A program made the translations under genes and the position numbers. The notes below the pieces were generated by a model. It ran no database searches, had not been told where the DNA came from, and saw nothing but the letters and a program-made list of their open reading frames with translations. Below, piece by piece: positions 2,906-30,228 of a stretch of 40,901 nucleotides of DNA (the first letter of the stretch is position 1; every line of letters begins with the position of its first letter). The DNA is from an uncultured Eggerthellaceae bacterium (GTDB lineage: Bacteria > Actinomycetota > Coriobacteriia > Coriobacteriales > Eggerthellaceae), in the NCBI GenBank assembly GCA_904420215.1, contig CAJFUR010000168.1, positions 1 to 40,901 on the forward strand, in the 5' to 3' direction.

Positions 2906-4288
2906 ATGACGGCAACTGGCAAGCCCGCCCGTTCCGCATGGTCGGGCAAGTGGGCGTTCATACTGGCAGCGGCGGCGTCCGCCGTGGGCCTGGGGAATAT
3001 GTGGCGCTTCCCGTATCTGGCCGCCAAGTACGGTGGCGGCACGTTCCTGCTCACCTATCTTCTGCTCGTGTTCACGTTCGGCGTGTCGCTGCTCTTGCTG
3101 GAGACGGCTTTGGGCCGCCTGACGGGGCAGTCGGCCATTGGGGCGTTCAAGCAGTTCGGGCGGAAGTACGCCTTCATCGGCATCCTCGCCTCCGCCGTGC
3201 CGTTCATCATCACGCCGTACTACTGCATCATCGGTGGGTGGGTCACCAAGTACGCAGTGGCCTATCTGGTGGACGGGCCGGCCGCGCTGGCCGACGGCGG
3301 GGGCTTCTTCACGGGGTTCATCACCAGCGACGTGGAAAGCTACCTGTGGATGCTCGTGTTCATGGCCGTCGCGTTCGCCGTGGTGGCGCTGGGGGTGAAG
3401 GGCGGCATCGAGAAGGCGAACCTGTTCATGATGCCCGCACTCATCGTCATGGCCGTGGGCATTGCCGTTTACACCCTCACCATGCCCGGTGCGCTGGAAG
3501 GCGCGCTGTACTACCTTGTACCCGATTTCAGCAAGTTCTCTCCCGAGCTGGTCGTCGGGGCGCTGGGGCAGATGTTCTACAGCCTTTCCCTTGCCATGGG
3601 CATCATGATCACGTATGGCTCGTACCTTGACCGCAAGTCGAGCCTGACGCAGAGCGTCGTGCGCGTGGGCGGGTTCGATCTGGGCGTGTCGTTTCTGGCA
3701 GGCCTCATGATCGTGCCGGCGGCGTTCGTGGCCATGGGGTCGGGCGAGGCGGTGGCGGCCAATTCCGGCCCCTCGCTCATGTTCGTGACGCTGCCTGCCG
3801 TGTTCGCCGACATGGGCGGCGCGGCCGCCGCGATAGGCTTTTTGTTCTTCTTGTTGGTGCTGTTCGCCGCGCTGACGAGCGCCATCTCGCTCACCGAGAC
3901 GTGCGTGTCCATCGTGCAGGACGGCGCCGGCTGGTCGCGCAGGAAGTCGTTTGCCGTGGTGATTGCCGTGGTGGTCGTGGCGGGCATCGTGGTGAACATG
4001 GGGTACAACGGCCTTTCGTTCATCGAGCCCTTGGGCGCCGGCACCAGCCTGCTGGACTTCTTCGACTTCCTTTCCAATTCGGTGGTCATGCCCATTGTGG
4101 CGCTGCTCACGTGCGTGTTCGTGGGCTGGGTGGTGAAGCCGAAACTCATCATCGACGAGGTGGAGCGTTCGGGCCCCTTCCGCCTGAAGAAGCCCTGGAC
4201 GGTCATGGTCAAATACATTGCCCCGGTGCTGGTGGTGGTCATTCTGGTGGCCTACGTCGCCCAGACGTTCGGGATCGTCACCTTCTAG
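2906..4288 (+). CDS. Sodium:neurotransmitter symporter (NSS) family transporter
   Basis: A 460-residue integral membrane protein, probably importing an amino acid or related amine with Na+. The first membrane helix has the family signature (SAVGLGNMWRFPYLAAKYGGG), where the unwound helix binds substrate and sodium in LeuT-type transporters. About 11-12 hydrophobic helices follow. The ATG at 2906 follows GGAGGT by five bases. The substrate cannot be told from sequence. It is transcribed divergently from asnB with a 423-base gap that holds a family I palindromic element and a TATAAT box. The length is normal and no truncation is seen. Confidence 0.93.
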   Translation: MTATGKPARSAWSGKWAFILAAAASAVGLGNMWRFPYLAAKYGGGTFLLTYLLLVFTFGVSLLLLETALGRLTGQSAIGAFKQFGRKYAFIGILASAVPFIITPYYCIIGGWVTKYAVAYLVDGPAALADGGGFFTGFITSDVESYLWMLVFMAVAFAVVALGVKGGIEKANLFMMPALIVMAVGIAVYTLTMPGALEGALYYLVPDFSKFSPELVVGALGQMFYSLSLAMGIMITYGSYLDRKSSLTQSVVRVGGFDLGVSFLAGLMIVPAAFVAMGSGEAVAANSGPSLMFVTLPAVFADMGGAAAAIGFLFFLLVLFAALTSAISLTETCVSIVQDGAGWSRRKSFAVVIAVVVVAGIVVNMGYNGLSFIEPLGAGTSLLDFFDFLSNSVVMPIVALLTCVFVGWVVKPKLIIDEVERSGPFRLKKPWTVMVKYIAPVLVVVILVAYVAQTFGIVTF

Positions 4289-4515
4289 GGGCGCGCTTCG
4301 CTTTTCGCGGGGCTTACGGGGCGCACACGGGTTGGCAAAGGCCTCCAGGGCGCTTCCTTGGCACGGGGGGCGTTGCCCTATCATCCTCTTTGCGTGCGGG
4401 GCGCATGCCGTGCTGCGGGCGGACGCGGGTTTCCGCCGCATGCGGCGATAGCGCCCCTTTCGACGCTCTGCCCTGTGGGCGGGAGAAGCGACAATCCGAG
4501 CGAAAAGAGGATCCC

Positions 4516-4860
4516 ATGATGGAAGACACGATCGACGAGTTGAAGGGCCAGCCCGAAGGCTACGGCAAGGGCGAGAACTACGGCAAGGGCGAAGGCTATG
4601 CCTCCGGGGACCGCTACGGCGACGGCGAGCGCTACGGCGAAGGCTACGCGAAAGGCGAGCATTACGGCGCGGGCAAGGAAGGCTATGCGGAAGGCGAGCG
4701 CTATGCCGGCGGGGGACACTACGGCAAGGGCGAGCATTACGCCTCGGGCGAGAAGTACGCTTCCGGTGAGAAATATGCTTCCGGCGAGAAGTACGCCGGC
4801 GGCGAGCGCTACGGCTCCGGCGAGAAGTATGGGGCGGCTGCAGACGGCGGCGAGCGGTAA
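4516..4860 (+). CDS. Tyr/Gly/Glu-rich hexapeptide-repeat protein
   Basis: A 114-residue hydrophilic protein. After a short leader (MMEDTIDELKGQPE) it consists almost entirely of about 14 six-residue units of the form (K/R/H/G)Y(A/G)xGE, such as KYASGE repeated three times near the end. There is no cysteine, signal peptide or membrane helix. Two ATGs occur in tandem (4516, 4519) after AGAGG. The stop is nine bases from the next gene, a U32-family protein, so the three genes probably form an operon. I do not know the family. The regular Tyr in every unit, beside a pair of putative Fe-S U32 enzymes, makes a modified or structural peptide possible, but that is inference. Lys-Tyr-Gly repeats are also seen in adhesive proteins. 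Confidence 0.75.
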   Translation: MMEDTIDELKGQPEGYGKGENYGKGEGYASGDRYGDGERYGEGYAKGEHYGAGKEGYAEGERYAGGGHYGKGEHYASGEKYASGEKYASGEKYAGGERYGSGEKYGAAADGGER

Positions 4861-4869
4861 GTCCTCGGC

Positions 4870-6021
4870 ATGCAGTCCGTTCCCGCGTGCAGCGTTGCCG
4901 ACGTGGCGGCTGCGGCCCGTGCCCGTGGCCTGACGCTTGGCGAGGTGGTCGAGCGTGCCATGGAACTGGCGGGCCGCAGCCATGCCCAGCGCCTCTACGT
5001 CGGCTCCAACTTCTGCAGCCAATACTTCCTGCGCCAGTCGATGTCGCTGTGGCGGGAGGCGTTCGCTCTCTGCCGCCGGGAGGGCATGGCGGCCACGCTG
5101 GTGGTGCCCGTTGTCTCGCAGCGCGACCTGGCCGAGGCGTGTCAGCTGGTGGAGGAGATCCTCACGTCCTACGGCGACATGGTGGACGAGATCACCGTCA
5201 ACGACGTGGGCATGTTCGCCTATTGCCGCCAAAGGTGCGGGCGGGCCATCAACCTGGGCCGCCTGTTCTTCAAGGAGCCGCGCGACCCGCGCTATGCCGA
5301 CCTGTTCGAGACGCGCCATGCCGTGGGGCTGCCGGCGGTGCTCACGGGGCTTTTTTCCCGCGGTGAGGTGGCCGGGATAGAGATAGACCCCACGCACGCC
5401 GCGCTGGACCTGTCCGAGGTGCGCGGCTTCCTGCCGCAGGTGAGCGTGGGCGTGCACATGCCGTACTGCTACCTTTCGACGGGCAACGTGTGCGAGTTCG
5501 CGGGCATCGGCCGCCCCGTGCGTGAGAAGTTCCGCCCGAACGCCCCCTGTGCGATGGAATGCGCGCGCTGCTCGGTGGGCTATGGGCTGCCCTATGGCAC
5601 GCGCATGCTCAAGTGGGGGCGCACCGTGTACTTTCCCAACCATGGCTGCACCGTGTGCGAGGGCGAGGACTTCCGCATGATCGTGACCCCGTTCGACGTG
5701 CTGGTGCCACGCCGCGACAGCGCGACGCGAAACGGCCCCACCGCCGTGTTCCGCCCGGAGGGGCGCACCGCGCCCGCGGCGCGTGCCGGCGTGCGGGGCG
5801 CCGCGGCGTCGGGTGCGCTTGCAACAAGGGGAAAGCCTGCGGGAAGAGACGATTTGACGGCGGCGGGCGCTTCCGCGCGAAAGGGCGACTTGGCGGCGGC
5901 AAGCATGCGCGCGGCAACAGGCGCCCCTGCGGAAGCGGGCGCGCTGGCAGTGGACGTGCCTGTGGGGGCGAGCCTGCCCACGGCGGCGGGCGCGCCTGTG
6001 GGAGCGGGGGCGCGCCCGTGA
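4870..6021 (+). CDS. U32-family (UbiV-like) protein, first of a pair
   Basis: A 383-residue protein whose first 280 residues look like the TIM-barrel of the U32 group (VDEITVNDVGMFAYC, GRAINLGRLFFKEPRDPRY). A cysteine cluster follows (YCYLSTGNVCEF, then CAMECARC). Similar four-cysteine sets bind a [4Fe-4S] cluster in UbiU/UbiV, so this is probably an Fe-S member rather than a classical protease. Residues from about 300 form an Ala/Gly-rich tail with no recognisable fold. The start at 4870 has only a weak ribosome site, and translation may be coupled to the repeat gene ending at 4860. The last four bases overlap the next U32 gene. The substrate is unknown. Confidence 0.75.
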   Translation: MQSVPACSVADVAAAARARGLTLGEVVERAMELAGRSHAQRLYVGSNFCSQYFLRQSMSLWREAFALCRREGMAATLVVPVVSQRDLAEACQLVEEILTSYGDMVDEITVNDVGMFAYCRQRCGRAINLGRLFFKEPRDPRYADLFETRHAVGLPAVLTGLFSRGEVAGIEIDPTHAALDLSEVRGFLPQVSVGVHMPYCYLSTGNVCEFAGIGRPVREKFRPNAPCAMECARCSVGYGLPYGTRMLKWGRTVYFPNHGCTVCEGEDFRMIVTPFDVLVPRRDSATRNGPTAVFRPEGRTAPAARAGVRGAAASGALATRGKPAGRDDLTAAGASARKGDLAAASMRAATGAPAEAGALAVDVPVGASLPTAAGAPVGAGARP

Positions 6022-6971
6022 ACACGCTGGTTCCGGTGAACGACCGCGCCTATCTGGGGCGCTATGCGCGTGCGGGCGGCGACGAGTTCTACGTGGGCTT
6101 CCACGACGAGGCGTGGCACGCCCGCTTCGGGCGCGCGGCCGACCTCAACCGCATGACCAGCTTCCTCGACCAGGCGAACCCCTACTCGTTCGAGGAAGTG
6201 CTCTCCATTGCCGACGAGGTGCGCGCGCTGGACCGGCGGCTCTACGTGACATTCAACGCCAACGCGTACTCGCGCGCGCAGCTGGATTTCCTGTTCGGCT
6301 ACTTCGAGCGCTTGCGCGAGGCGGGCGCGGCCGGCGTCATCGTGTCGGTTCCCGAGGCCGTGGAGGCGGCTGCCGACAGCGGGCTGGAGGTGGTGGCGTC
6401 CACCATGTGCGGCGTGTACAACGCCCAGATAGCCTGCGTGCTGCGCGACTTGGGCTGCACGCGCGTCATCGTCCCGCGCGACGTGTCGCTGGGCGAGGTC
6501 GAGTGCATCATGCGCGCGGTGCCCGGCCTGGAGTACGAGGTGTTCCTGATGCGCAACGGATGCATCTTTTCCGACTGCTACTGCCTTGGCCGGCACTTCA
6601 AGGGGCGCAACGCGCTGTGCTTCGACGTGCGCGACGTGCGCCGCGAGTTCTTCGTGGAAGGCCCGCCGGCTCTTGCGCAGGCGGCGCGCGAGAACAACGG
6701 GGCATACGGGCGGTTCCACCGCGCGGCGTGCGGGCTGTGCGCGGTGTGGCGCTTCGAGCGCATGGGCGTTTCCGCCGCGAAGATAGTGGGGCGCTCGGAC
6801 GACTCGGAGTTCATTTTGCGCGACATAGAGACGATCCGCCGCAACGTGGAGATTGCGCGGGACTGCGGAAGCGAGCGGGAGTTCCTTGCTCGCATGCACG
6901 TGCCGCCTGAACGCGCCGCCGCCTGCGGCGAGGGCCTGAACTGCTACTACCCGGAAGTGCGCTTCGGGTGA
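6018..6971 (+). CDS. U32-family protein, second of a pair
   Basis: A 317-residue protein with a GTG start inside the GTGA overlap with the preceding stop. The barrel is recognisable from DEFYVGFHDEAWHARFGR, LYVTFNANAYSRAQ and GVIVSVPEAVE. The C-terminal half has cysteines in the usual U32 region (GCIFSDCYCLGRH, and CGLCAVW further on). Two adjacent U32 proteins recall the UbiU-UbiV heterodimer, which performs oxygen-independent hydroxylation in ubiquinone synthesis; RlhA and TrhP are U32 RNA hydroxylases. No quinone or RNA-modification genes flank this pair, so its substrate is open. The repeat protein encoded just upstream is a plausible partner. Confidence 0.8.
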   Translation: MNTLVPVNDRAYLGRYARAGGDEFYVGFHDEAWHARFGRAADLNRMTSFLDQANPYSFEEVLSIADEVRALDRRLYVTFNANAYSRAQLDFLFGYFERLREAGAAGVIVSVPEAVEAAADSGLEVVASTMCGVYNAQIACVLRDLGCTRVIVPRDVSLGEVECIMRAVPGLEYEVFLMRNGCIFSDCYCLGRHFKGRNALCFDVRDVRREFFVEGPPALAQAARENNGAYGRFHRAACGLCAVWRFERMGVSAAKIVGRSDDSEFILRDIETIRRNVEIARDCGSEREFLARMHVPPERAAACGEGLNCYYPEVRFG

Positions 6972-7132
6972 GGGCGCCTCGCGCCCGATGGGCGCCTGCG
7001 GCGGGCGGGCGCCGGTCGCGCCGGGGGCCGGCAAGCGCCGGTGGCGGGTGGGGAGCCCCGCGGCGGGTGGGGGCCCGCGGCAGGCGCGAAGTGGGGATTG
7101 CATCGGGGGCATCCCGGCTGGCGGGTTTGTTT

Positions 7133-7140
7133 GCTATCAT
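7133..7140 (+). promoter_or_regulatory. Extended -10 box before ychF
   Basis: TGCTATCAT carries the extended TG motif. The 3' side is 105 bases from the ychF start. No good -35 is seen. The same word occurs before gatC. The rest of the 6972-7245 gap is G+C-rich with short inverted repeats and no gene. Confidence 0.4.
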
Positions 7141-7245
7141 GGGGCGGACACGTAAAATGCGCAGGCGCATGCAACCCGCACGGAGCCTTCGGACGCCGGG
7201 TGCGCGAGTGCCTGCCGCGCGAGGCATGCAAGCAAAGGAAGTCCC

Positions 7246-8310
7246 ATGTCGCTCTCCATCGGTATCGTCGGGCTGCCCAACGTGGGCAAGTCCACGCTGT
7301 TCACGGCCCTCACGAACAAGGGCGGCCTTGCGGCCAACTACCCGTTTGCCACCATCGAGCCCAACGTGGGCGTGGTGCCGGTGCCCGATGCGCGGCTGGA
7401 CGCGCTGGCAGCCATCGACAACCCGGCGCGCATCGTGCCGGCCACGGTGGAGTTCGTGGACATCGCGGGCCTGGTGGCCGGGGCGAGCCAGGGGGAGGGG
7501 CTGGGCAACCAGTTCCTTGCGAACATCCGCGAGACGGACGCTATCTGCGAGGTGGTGCGCTTCTTCGGCGATGCCGACGTGGTGCACGTGGCGGGCCGCG
7601 TGGACCCGGCTTCCGACGTGGAAACCATCAAGACCGAACTCATCCTGGCCGACATGGCCACGCTGGAAAAGGCCCTGCCGCGCCTTGAGAAGGAGGCCAA
7701 GCGCGACAAGGCCGGCGCCAAGAAGCTGGAGGTGGCGAAGAAGGTGCTCGCGGGACTGGACGAGGGGCACCGCGCGCGCACGCTGGACTTGGACGACGAG
7801 GAGCGCGCGGCGCTGTACGACTTGCACCTGCTCACCATGAAGCCGATGCTCTACGTTGCCAACGTGGACGAAGACCAGCTGGACGCCAGCCTGCCGGAGA
7901 TCGACGGCTGCGCGCCCGTGCCCATTTCCGCGAAGGTGGAGGCCGACTTGGCAGAGTTGGACGCGGAGGAGGCCAAGGAGTACTTGGAAGCCATGGGGCT
8001 TGAGGAAAGCGGGCTTGCGCGCCTGGTGCGCGAGGCGTACCGCCTGCTGGGCCTGCAGAGCTACTTCACCAGCGGCGAGACGGAGACGCGCGCGTGGACC
8101 ATCCCCATCGGCGCGAAGGCCCCGCAGGCCGCCGGCGTCATTCACACCGACTTCGAGCGCGGCTTCATCAAGGCCGAGACGGCGTCGTTTGCCGACTACG
8201 TGGAACTGGGCGGCGAAAAGGGCTGCCGCGACGCCGGCAAGCTGCGCCAGGAGGGCAAGGACTACGTCGTCCAAGACGGCGATGTCATGCACTTCAAATT
8301 CAACGTGTAG
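7246..8310 (+). CDS. ychF: Redox-regulated ATPase YchF (Obg family)
   Basis: A 354-residue, full-length P-loop protein of the universally conserved YchF/OLA1 group. It binds ATP rather than GTP and associates with ribosomes. The G1 motif is at the N terminus (GIVGLPNVGKST), the switch and G3 region reads FVDIAGLVAGASQGEGLGN, and the C-terminal TGS-like domain ends in DFVE-type sequence (KDYVVQDGDVMHFKFNV). A purine-rich site (AAAGGAAG) precedes the ATG. The MNT gene starts 12 bases after the stop, so transcription may read through into the toxin-antitoxin pair. Confidence 0.97.
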   Translation: MSLSIGIVGLPNVGKSTLFTALTNKGGLAANYPFATIEPNVGVVPVPDARLDALAAIDNPARIVPATVEFVDIAGLVAGASQGEGLGNQFLANIRETDAICEVVRFFGDADVVHVAGRVDPASDVETIKTELILADMATLEKALPRLEKEAKRDKAGAKKLEVAKKVLAGLDEGHRARTLDLDDEERAALYDLHLLTMKPMLYVANVDEDQLDASLPEIDGCAPVPISAKVEADLAELDAEEAKEYLEAMGLEESGLARLVREAYRLLGLQSYFTSGETETRAWTIPIGAKAPQAAGVIHTDFERGFIKAETASFADYVELGGEKGCRDAGKLRQEGKDYVVQDGDVMHFKFNV

Positions 8311-12108: not shown

Positions 12109-13521
12109 CTACTCCAGCGTGTTGAGGATGCCCATGAACACGGGGAAGTTCGTCCGCTGGTCGATGATCAGGTACAGGAAGGGCCGGTCGAGGTGCACGG
12201 TCTTCTCGTCCTCGGGAGCCATGGCCGATGCTGCGTTCATGCTCATGGCCGTGGCTGCGCCCGCTTTCGTGCCCTGCTCGTCCACGGCGATGTGCGCCTT
12301 GTGCAGCACCGAGCCGATGTACAGCCCGTTGGCATCCGGCGACAGGCGCGCGAAGTCCGCCAAGCCGGCGTCGAACGCGTCGGGCATCCCGAGCGCGCTC
12401 AGGCCGTCCGCGAGGTCGATGGCGTACTCGCTTTCGAACTTCGGCATGCTGGCGTGCACCACGATGTCCCGCGAACCCTCCAGAATGCCCTGCAGGCGCC
12501 CGCCGTCGAGCGTGGCCGCGTAGTCCTGCACCGACATGCCCTCGGGCGGCAGGATTGCGGCGAAGGCGAACGGGCTTTCCTCGTAGGCGTAGGGCTTCAC
12601 GAACCCCACGGCCTCGCCGTCCTCCAAGTAGTGGTGCTCGGTCGAGAACATCATCCGGGCCTCCTGCGCCGTGCCGTCGGCGGCGGCGAACGTGCCGTCG
12701 CGCACGGCGTCTTCGGTGTAGGGGCTGGCCCAGTCGGCGTCGAAGGCCAAGGCGTTCACCAGGTACAGCACGGCCTCGGCGGGGATTTCCCCGATCAGGT
12801 TCTCCACCATGCCGTCGGTGTTTTCGCTCACCCACGCGTTGATGTCGCGCGCGGTGCCTTGGTCGAAGGCCGCGCGGAAGGCGCCGGCGGCGTAGTAGTC
12901 GGCGTTCGTCTGGAGAAACGCCTGTTCGACTTCGAAGCCGTCCCTGATCCAGAGCGCGTTCGCCAGCTTGAGGGGGCTTGCTGCCGCGCCCGCATCTGCG
13001 GCGCCGCCAGTGGCGTCTGCGTCCCCGCCCGCGCCCTCGGTCGTGCCAGCGACGTTCGCGCCGCCGATGCTCCCTGCCGCCCCGGTGGCCACATACGGCT
13101 CCGCGAGCGACTGGTCGAGCGCGTGCAGGTAGGCGTTCACGTCGGCAACTGGCGCGCCCAGGACCTGCTCGGTTTGGGCCAGCGTTTCGCCGTCCATGCC
13201 GTTGGCGGCCATGCCAAGCGCGTACAGCACGGAAAGCGGCGACATCACCACGTTGCCCTCCGCGGCGGCGCCTTGCTGGAACAGCGCCACGGCGAAGTCG
13301 GCCGCGGCCGTGGCCGCCGGCCCGTCGAGCGCCGCGGGCATGGCCTCCACGTTGCCGGCCTCCACGTTCTCCATCAGGTCTTCGGAGGCCAGCGCCTGCG
13401 TGGAGGAGCAGCCCGAAAGGGCGCCCGCCCCGGTGCCGGCAAGCGCGAGCGCCAGCAGGGCGGCCAATGCGGCGGCGAGCGCCTTTGACGTTGCGGAAAG
13501 TTTCACGAATGCAGGTTTCAT
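12109..13521 (-). CDS. Serpin lipoprotein
   Basis: A 470-residue serine protease inhibitor. The N terminus is a lipoprotein signal (hydrophobic stretch, then LSGCSS with Cys38), so it should be anchored outside the membrane. Serpin landmarks include NVVMSPLSVLYALGMAANG, LANALWI and the C-terminal HLDRPFLYLIIDQRTNFPVF split around VFMGIL. The reactive loop begins at the hinge DEQGTKAGAATA. Counting 17 residues from the hinge Glu places P1-P1' at Ala-Ser (NAA/SAM), suggesting an elastase- or subtilisin-like target. An Ala/Gly-rich insertion of about 35 residues precedes SPLKLANALW. AAAGGA lies seven bases before the ATG. The gene converges with larE. Confidence 0.92.
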   Translation of the reverse strand: MKPAFVKLSATSKALAAALAALLALALAGTGAGALSGCSSTQALASEDLMENVEAGNVEAMPAALDGPAATAAADFAVALFQQGAAAEGNVVMSPLSVLYALGMAANGMDGETLAQTEQVLGAPVADVNAYLHALDQSLAEPYVATGAAGSIGGANVAGTTEGAGGDADATGGAADAGAAASPLKLANALWIRDGFEVEQAFLQTNADYYAAGAFRAAFDQGTARDINAWVSENTDGMVENLIGEIPAEAVLYLVNALAFDADWASPYTEDAVRDGTFAAADGTAQEARMMFSTEHHYLEDGEAVGFVKPYAYEESPFAFAAILPPEGMSVQDYAATLDGGRLQGILEGSRDIVVHASMPKFESEYAIDLADGLSALGMPDAFDAGLADFARLSPDANGLYIGSVLHKAHIAVDEQGTKAGAATAMSMNAASAMAPEDEKTVHLDRPFLYLIIDQRTNFPVFMGILNTLE

Positions 13522-29328: not shown

Positions 29329-30228
29329 ATGGGGAACATGCTGTACTTGGAATGCACGTCGGGCATCAGCGGCGACATGACGGTGGCGGCGCTGCTGGAC
29401 GCGGGCGCGCGCGAGGACGTGCTGCGCCGCGCGTTGGACAGCCTGCCGGTGGACGGGTTTTCGGTGCGGGTGAGCCGCGTGAAGAAGTCGGGCCTCGACG
29501 CGTGCGACTTCGCGGTGCTTCTGGATGCGGAACACGAGAACCATGACCACGACATGGCCTACCTGCACGGCCCGACCGGCGCGCCCGGGGATGCCGGTCG
29601 CGGGCACGCGCACGGCGGCGATGACCACGGCCACTCCCACTCCCACTCCCACTCCCACTCCCACTCCCACTCCCACCCCTACCCCCATCCCCGTTCCCAT
29701 GATCACGAGCATCGCGGGCTGCCGGAGATCCTCGCGCTCATCGACGCCGCGGACATGACCGACCGCGCGAAGGCCATCGCGCGCCGCACCTTCGAGGTGC
29801 TTGCCGACGCCGAGGCCAAGGCGCACGGCGTTTCGCGCGACGAGGTGCACTTCCACGAGGTGGGCGCCGTTGATTCCATTGCCGACGTGGTGGCCGCGGC
29901 CGTCTGCTTCGACGACCTGGGCGCAACCGATGTGGTGGTGCCCCTGCTGTGCGAGGGGCGTGGCACCGTGCGCTGCCAGCACGGCATCATTCCCGTGCCC
30001 GTTCCCGCCGTGGTGAACATCGTTTCCGCACACGGCATCCCGCTGCGCCTTCTGGACGTGCAAGGCGAACTCGTCACGCCCACGGGCGCGGCGCTGGCCG
30101 CCGCCGTGCGCACGCGCACGCAACTTCCCGAGCGCTTCGTGGTGGAGCGCGTGGGCATCGGCGCCGGCAAGCGCGACTACGCCACTCCTGGCATTCTGCG
30201 CGCCCTCGTCATCCGCGAGGAAAACTGA
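29329..30228 (+). CDS. larC: Nickel insertion protein LarC, first domain only
   Basis: LarC inserts nickel into the pincer nucleotide using CTP. The protein begins MGNMLYLECTSGISGDMTVAALLDAG, divided here as MLYLECTSGISGDM and what follows. It has a His-rich metal-binding stretch with seven His-Ser pairs, then HFHEVGAVDSIADVV and PVPAVVNI. It ends at GIGAGKRDYATPGILRALVI, where full-length LarC (about 400 residues) enters its second, CTP-binding domain. That domain is missing: no frame in 30229-30785 encodes its usual IDDMTGE-type motif, so this is not the programmed frameshift known in Lactobacillus larC1/larC2. Start is uncertain: TTG 29317, ATG 29329 or ATG 29338. Confidence 0.88.
   Translation: MGNMLYLECTSGISGDMTVAALLDAGAREDVLRRALDSLPVDGFSVRVSRVKKSGLDACDFAVLLDAEHENHDHDMAYLHGPTGAPGDAGRGHAHGGDDHGHSHSHSHSHSHSHSHPYPHPRSHDHEHRGLPEILALIDAADMTDRAKAIARRTFEVLADAEAKAHGVSRDEVHFHEVGAVDSIADVVAAAVCFDDLGATDVVVPLLCEGRGTVRCQHGIIPVPVPAVVNIVSAHGIPLRLLDVQGELVTPTGAALAAAVRTRTQLPERFVVERVGIGAGKRDYATPGILRALVIREEN
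29632..29676 (+). repeat. CACTCC hexamer repeat encoding His-Ser in LarC
   Basis: Seven perfect CACTCC units (29632-29673) plus a final CAC, inside larC. Six-base slippage would add or remove His-Ser pairs without a frameshift and so tune the length of the nickel-binding loop. Confidence 0.95.

Follow-up and report, generated by a model that had tools for sequence, protein, structure and literature searches.

Pairs of adjacent U32-type genes, here called U32-A and U32-B, lie beside genes for tyrosine-rich repeat proteins in two bacterial phyla. Sequence comparisons support a functional connection of the repeat protein with the pair, and argue strongly for an Fe–S heterodimer resembling UbiU–UbiV that takes the repeat protein as its substrate. 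We put at slightly better than even the proposal that this heterodimer, acting independently of O2, hydroxylates the tyrosine rings of its cognate repeat proteins to DOPA.

A minimal three-gene locus

The window, meaning the whole stretch of DNA that was analysed, comprises 40,901 nt from an uncultured Eggerthellaceae bacterium (assembly GCA_904420215.1, contig CAJFUR010000168.1, positions 1–40,901, forward strand). Its locus consists of a minimal three genes and lacks an adjacent radical SAM gene:

about 4503–4510, + strand: ribosome-binding site AAAAGAGG of the repeat gene (from sequence)
4516–4860, + strand: Tyr/Gly hexapeptide-repeat protein, 114 aa, 16 Tyr; proposed substrate (ORF; homologues directly precede the pair in eight further genomes)
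4555–4836, + strand: repeat array, residues 14–107, one Tyr per six residues (from sequence)
4870–6021, + strand: U32-A, UbiV-like partner, 383 aa, with conserved Cys49, Cys208, Cys227 and Cys231 (from predicted fold, Cys pattern and profile comparison)
6018–6971, + strand: U32-B, UbiU-like U32 protein, 317 aa (from Pfam, profile comparison and Cys conservation)

As the original prediction had it, the repeat gene lies nine bases before two overlapping genes: its stop at 4860 is followed by the U32-A start at 4870, and U32-B begins with a GTG at 6018, overlapping U32-A by 4 bases. A sodium symporter gene upstream (2906–4288) and a gene for the GTPase YchF downstream (7246–8310) flank the unit in the window and in most, but not all, close relatives; because this flanking is inconstant, they are not counted as parts of the system. 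Elsewhere in the window are a bacterial serpin gene (12109–13467; Pfam PF00079, E 7e-78), a perfect (ACCCGA)n tract at the contig end (1–82) and a (CCACTC)n tract (29631–29691).

The 16 tyrosines of the repeat protein span residues 16–105, and 13 of the 15 intervals between them are exactly 6 residues (the other two are 4 and 7), so that the earlier count of about 14 units was close. Phe, Trp and Cys are entirely absent. We take the repeat ORF to be a real gene, rather than a chance open frame of GC-rich DNA, on three grounds: (i) the codon model score favours it as coding; (ii) its N-terminus (MMEDTIDELK) and Shine–Dalgarno sequence are kept across two genera, with synonymous changes, and in most of nine genomes set side by side an AAAGAGG-like or AAGGAGG-like ribosome-binding site precedes the ATG; and (iii) nine genomes from three genera retain the tyrosine spacing, the remainder of the unit drifting. 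No known family in Pfam, NCBIfam or PHROGs matches the protein above its cut-off. A suprabasin-like Pfam match (14.8 of 31 bits) reflects composition only and was set aside.

Assignment of the two U32-type proteins

U32-B is clearly a U32 protein by sequence, matching Peptidase_U32 (PF01136) above the gathering score (95.6 bits against a cut-off of 22.4, E 3.7e-27) and UbiU in profile comparison (probability 99%, E 3e-18). It has four cysteines in a UbiU-type arrangement, Cys182-X6-Cys189-X11-Cys201-X36-Cys238. This spacing is shorter than the CX6CX16CX38C of UbiU; the first three cysteines are in register and the fourth is without a certain alignment. Cys182, Cys189 and Cys201 align on Cys169, Cys176 and Cys193 of UbiU, which are cluster ligands (PMC6747719). 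Scores against the NCBIfam family models fall far below cut-off for UbiU (27 of 440 bits) and UbiV (17 of 275 bits), and U32-B reaches 38 bits with the TrhP model, whose cut-off is 534 bits. Across 41 pairs U32-B keeps seven cysteines, with at most one exception per column. Those near-invariant beyond the UbiU-like four are Cys241, Cys303 and Cys309, which could possibly be ligands of a second cluster. Given these three additional conserved cysteines, the chemistry of U32-B may differ from that of UbiU.

U32-A is much more divergent. Neither Pfam nor NCBIfam gives it a match at E<1, Peptidase_U32 (PF01136) and the UbiV equivalog included, and the earlier naming of two U32 genes is thus borne out by Pfam for U32-B and not for U32-A. 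We assign U32-A as a very distant U32 protein on the evidence of its predicted fold, the arrangement of its cysteines and profile comparison. The predicted core (residues 1–280, pLDDT about 85–98) is a TIM barrel whose best structural match in VIA-align is 5D88 (Z 13.5, rmsd 3.5, 204 residues), the sole solved U32 protein found; it leads by a small margin, other TIM barrels following at Z 12.4 or less. Profile comparison gives 64% for UbiV (E 6e-5) and 16% for UbiU, with Cys49 falling on Cys39 of UbiV, a likeness that is weak and local. Exactly four cysteines are kept across the 41 pairs, with at most one exception per column (40–41/41). Their arrangement, Cys49-Xn-Cys208-X18-Cys227-X3-Cys231, is of the UbiV type (CXnCX12CX3C), with the same last spacing and a longer middle one. 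The C-terminal tail (residues 283–383, window 5718–6021) is of low complexity and predicted to be disordered, and is short or absent in most relatives. A search of solved structures by sequence with the U32-A and U32-B profiles gave no useful match. The cysteine conservation and profile alignments agree with the original prediction of two Fe–S proteins, here probably of the UbiU/UbiV type.

Association of the pair with tyrosine-rich repeats

We searched a family set of 138 Eggerthellaceae genomes for the pair and the repeat gene. The pair is carried by 18 of them, and homologues of the repeat gene occur in 9 of these 18 and in none of the 120 pair-less genomes (Fisher 1.3e-9), each of the nine lying immediately upstream of the pair. 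A match in the pair-less genome G019 was rejected as low-complexity sequence, rich in Ala, Pro and Tyr, within a membrane protein that appears unrelated. The pair is present in Gordonibacter pamelaeae, Eggerthella sinensis, Slackia equolifaciens and Adlercreutzia equolifaciens. The other family pair loci mostly have different Tyr/Gly repeat ORFs with other units. A molybdopterin molybdenumtransferase-like (MoeA) gene adjoins or lies near the pair in several Eggerthellaceae genera (L064–L070).

Bacillota loci were obtained from a U32-B profile scan of a public genome set. Pair loci were picked by U32 similarity and never by tyrosine, and most of the Bacillota loci also have Tyr-rich repeats. 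The repeats found are as follows (L numbers denote pair loci, the first four lines being from the Eggerthellaceae set):

L064: PHGEGYGGHH (GEGYGGHH)
L065: GPHGYGHP
L068: PEGYAGGP, about 7 kb from the pair
L069, L070: GPGGYGGKP
L083, L094, Slackia L071/L105: DYSYGGTYNETTGYT
L084, L087: KKEGYGEGYSHKEG, with related repeats in L091 and L098
L086, L092: repeat protein about one third Tyr
L093: two tandem Tyr-rich repeat genes
L099, L101, L103: Tyr-rich tails

Further units among the pair loci include KKEGYGEGYSH, GTAYYNSYYN and TDYSYTDYS.

For counting, a Tyr-rich repeat was defined as an ORF of ≥60 aa with ≥4 copies of one Tyr-containing tripeptide within 120 aa, a threshold set after the data had been seen and applied identically to the background. 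Such an ORF lies within 3 kb of the pair in 26 of the 38 loci with enough flank. The background, drawn at random from five genomes, gives one matching ORF in 760 kb; four of these genomes have the repeat gene and the fifth (G171) comes from a clade having the pair without it. Counted by lineage, a Tyr-repeat lies within about 4 kb of the pair in 13 of 17, or 14 of 17 when L068 is included. The link between repeat protein and pair proposed in the original prediction is therefore upheld both within the family and among these loci, and the replacement of the window's repeat by other tyrosine repeats elsewhere is the strongest evidence for it.

The composition of the 26 repeat proteins points to tyrosine as the important residue. 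No residues other than Tyr and Gly exceed background in all of them, Gly being as universal as Tyr, and the median content of Phe and of Trp is zero. Were a bulky aromatic side chain enough, Phe would be expected, and its scarcity suggests that the phenol group is what counts. The emphasis on tyrosine in the original prediction thus agrees with the finding that unrelated repeats in 14 of 17 lineages share Tyr and Gly and little else. Most of the Bacillota and Slackia repeat proteins (L083, L084, L086, L087, L091–L094, L071 and L105) also share a C-terminal GK (as GGK, YGK, PGK or SGK) and are otherwise different.

The main weakness of the case is the set of loci without a Tyr-rich neighbour. 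Among 392 Lachnospirales genomes searched with the U32-A profile, an Anaerosporobacter-related clade (L104, L124–L131) carries the pair but lacks any nearby Tyr-rich gene, and no neighbouring gene is common to all its members; L130, on a short contig, was left out of the count. No Tyr-rich gene lies near the pair at the single loci L066 and L096 either. Two probes of the genomes without such a neighbour, made with repeat proteins from other loci, found no substrate gene elsewhere, a similarity probe being blind to unrelated repeats. In a U32-B tree, loci with Tyr repeats occur throughout the group, and the clade lacking them branches from within it with strong support (100/98). This pattern is consistent with the substrate gene having been lost or separated from the pair, or with a changed substrate. 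The original prediction held that finding the pair widely without the repeat gene would count against it; this is the case in part, for the Lachnospirales clade, L066 and L096, and elsewhere the link holds.

Neighbouring genes in relatives

In Slackia and many Bacillota loci the repeat gene is adjoined by a gene for a radical SAM protein beginning MANIMLTDxCNL. These loci often add a GNAT-like (acetyltransferase-like) protein, and some add genes for an AMP-ligase, a carrier protein and a glycosyltransferase of family 9. They look like larger maturation systems, and none of the named RiPP family models reaches its cut-off. In L092 and L093 the neighbourhood of the Tyr-repeat cluster includes glycosyltransferase family 9 genes and several consecutive genes that look like those for ADP-heptose synthesis, the later ones being assigned to heptose by reading the sequences rather than by family search; glycosylation of the repeat protein is possible there. 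L090 has a Trp/Tyr-repeat protein (DHGWNDSYANW; 6901–7530) fused to a CFI-box C-terminal domain (NF041770, below cut-off), adjoined by a radical SAM gene and by a further U32 pair that has diverged. It is perhaps a sister system acting on Trp/Tyr repeats.

Proposed reaction and alternatives

We propose that the three genes would form a dedicated protein-modification unit. U32-A and U32-B would assemble as a heterodimer like UbiV–UbiU, each subunit folding as a TIM barrel that holds a single [4Fe-4S] cluster, and would recognise the flexible Tyr/Gly repeat protein encoded just upstream. The phenol rings of its tyrosines would be hydroxylated without oxygen, most likely to DOPA, with prephenate as the probable oxygen donor, as reported for other U32 hydroxylases. 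In relatives the pair would act on other Tyr/Gly repeat proteins and, in Slackia and many Bacillota, would do so together with a radical SAM enzyme, frequently joined by an acetyltransferase-like protein, AMP-ligase and carrier protein.

UbiU and UbiV associate as a heterodimer, each carrying one [4Fe-4S] cluster, and catalyse hydroxylations of ubiquinone synthesis that are independent of O2 (PMC6747719). The U32 hydroxylases characterised so far modify sp2 carbons of rings, their known substrates being RNA and quinone intermediates, and prephenate is the oxygen donor reported for anaerobic ubiquinone synthesis and suggested for the RNA U32 enzymes (PMC11574389). Prephenate dehydratase is present in 24 of 24 pair-bearing genomes tested, which speaks to availability only; it is near universal and discriminates nothing. 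The hydroxylations by UbiU–UbiV fall on a phenol-type ring. Computation establishes the genes, the conservation of the cysteines, the U32-A fold as a prediction and the link to Tyr-rich repeat genes; we infer the heterodimer, its clusters, tyrosine as the modified residue, the hydroxylation and the donor; ring hydroxylation of tyrosine is chosen because U32 hydroxylases act on ring carbons, and UbiU–UbiV on the ubiquinone ring.

The same association and composition evidence would fit a pair that modifies the repeat tyrosines by another reaction, such as Tyr–Tyr cross-linking, β-hydroxylation or reductive chemistry, with radical SAM enzymes adding changes in relatives. The three additional conserved cysteines of U32-B and the radical SAM, GNAT-like, AMP-ligase and carrier-protein genes of many loci lend this some weight, but those U32 proteins of this type that have been characterised are ring-carbon hydroxylases (PMC6747719, PMC11574389) and the window's locus manages without an adjacent radical SAM gene; we consider another reaction rather unlikely, although it deserves to be kept in mind. 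More doubtful is a pair that hydroxylates a small molecule or RNA, with the Tyr-rich proteins as a separate partner (a scaffold, a sink or a transporter of the product). The recurrence of different Tyr repeats beside the pair in 14 of 17 lineages argues against such a role, as does the failure to see any metabolic gene shared with the pair across phyla, even though RNA and quinone intermediates are the U32 substrates known (PMC11574389), MoeA lies beside the pair in several genera and no Tyr-rich gene neighbours the pair in the Lachnospirales clade.

Cleavage or processing of the Gly-rich repeat proteins by the pair, as a protease or maturase, seems to us highly improbable. U32 was named after a collagenase-like activity, and that old label and the richness in Gly of the repeats in all members speak for it; but cluster-type cysteines are present in essentially all 41 pairs, the likeness to UbiU places the cluster cysteines in register, and Gly-directed cutting gives no reason for keeping Tyr with Phe and Trp nearly absent.

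Returning to hydroxylation of the repeat tyrosines, there is a fair chance that the pair represents a new class of protein modification. The wider statement, that UbiUV-like Fe–S heterodimers of anaerobic gut bacteria in two phyla constitute an undescribed O2-independent class converting repeat-protein tyrosines to DOPA or other oxidised forms, on substrates that arose repeatedly and have only Tyr and Gly in common, we regard as evenly balanced. If true, a U32 pair dedicated to protein substrates would bring polypeptides within reach of oxygen-free hydroxylation, and would provide a route to DOPA-like proteins in anaerobes, where tyrosinase cannot work. In the open-access papers searched, no account of peptides as U32 substrates was found, the search covering few subscription articles or preprints.

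Comparison with known systems

The closest parallel is UbiU–UbiV (YhbU–YhbV), which likewise has two adjacent U32-type genes and cysteines partly in register with those of the pair. The gene order is reversed, however, with the UbiV-like gene first, and the pair is linked to Tyr-rich repeat proteins and found in Bacillota and Coriobacteriia. A true UbiUV acting in ubiquinone synthesis is not supported: the family cut-offs are unmet, and no ubiT (SCP2) gene occurs in the window neighbourhood, whereas ubiT lies beside ubiU–ubiV in all five annotated UbiV loci examined. Because those cut-offs are unmet, U32-A and U32-B are not called UbiU and UbiV, and the likeness serves as a working type.

With the tRNA and rRNA hydroxylases TrhP and RlhA the pair shares the U32 fold and a weak match of U32-B to TrhP. 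Identity with these enzymes is unlikely, since scores are far below cut-off and the same genome has separate, larger U32 genes (open frames of 625 and 859 aa) that are better TrhP/RlhA candidates. The relatives also resemble radical SAM RiPP systems (PapB-type, SCIFF) in that a precursor-like repeat peptide adjoins radical SAM and maturation-like genes. As in RiPP loci, a precursor-like gene next to presumed modifying enzymes is conserved across genomes, but the repeat proteins are long and without an evident leader.

Mussel foot proteins contain DOPA in Tyr/Gly/Lys repeats; they are eukaryotic, secreted and hydroxylated by an O2-dependent tyrosinase. We take the repeat proteins to resemble them in composition and in regular Tyr spacing, with no homology claimed, and our guess for the function of the product, by analogy, is metal binding or adhesion, as in the mussel proteins.
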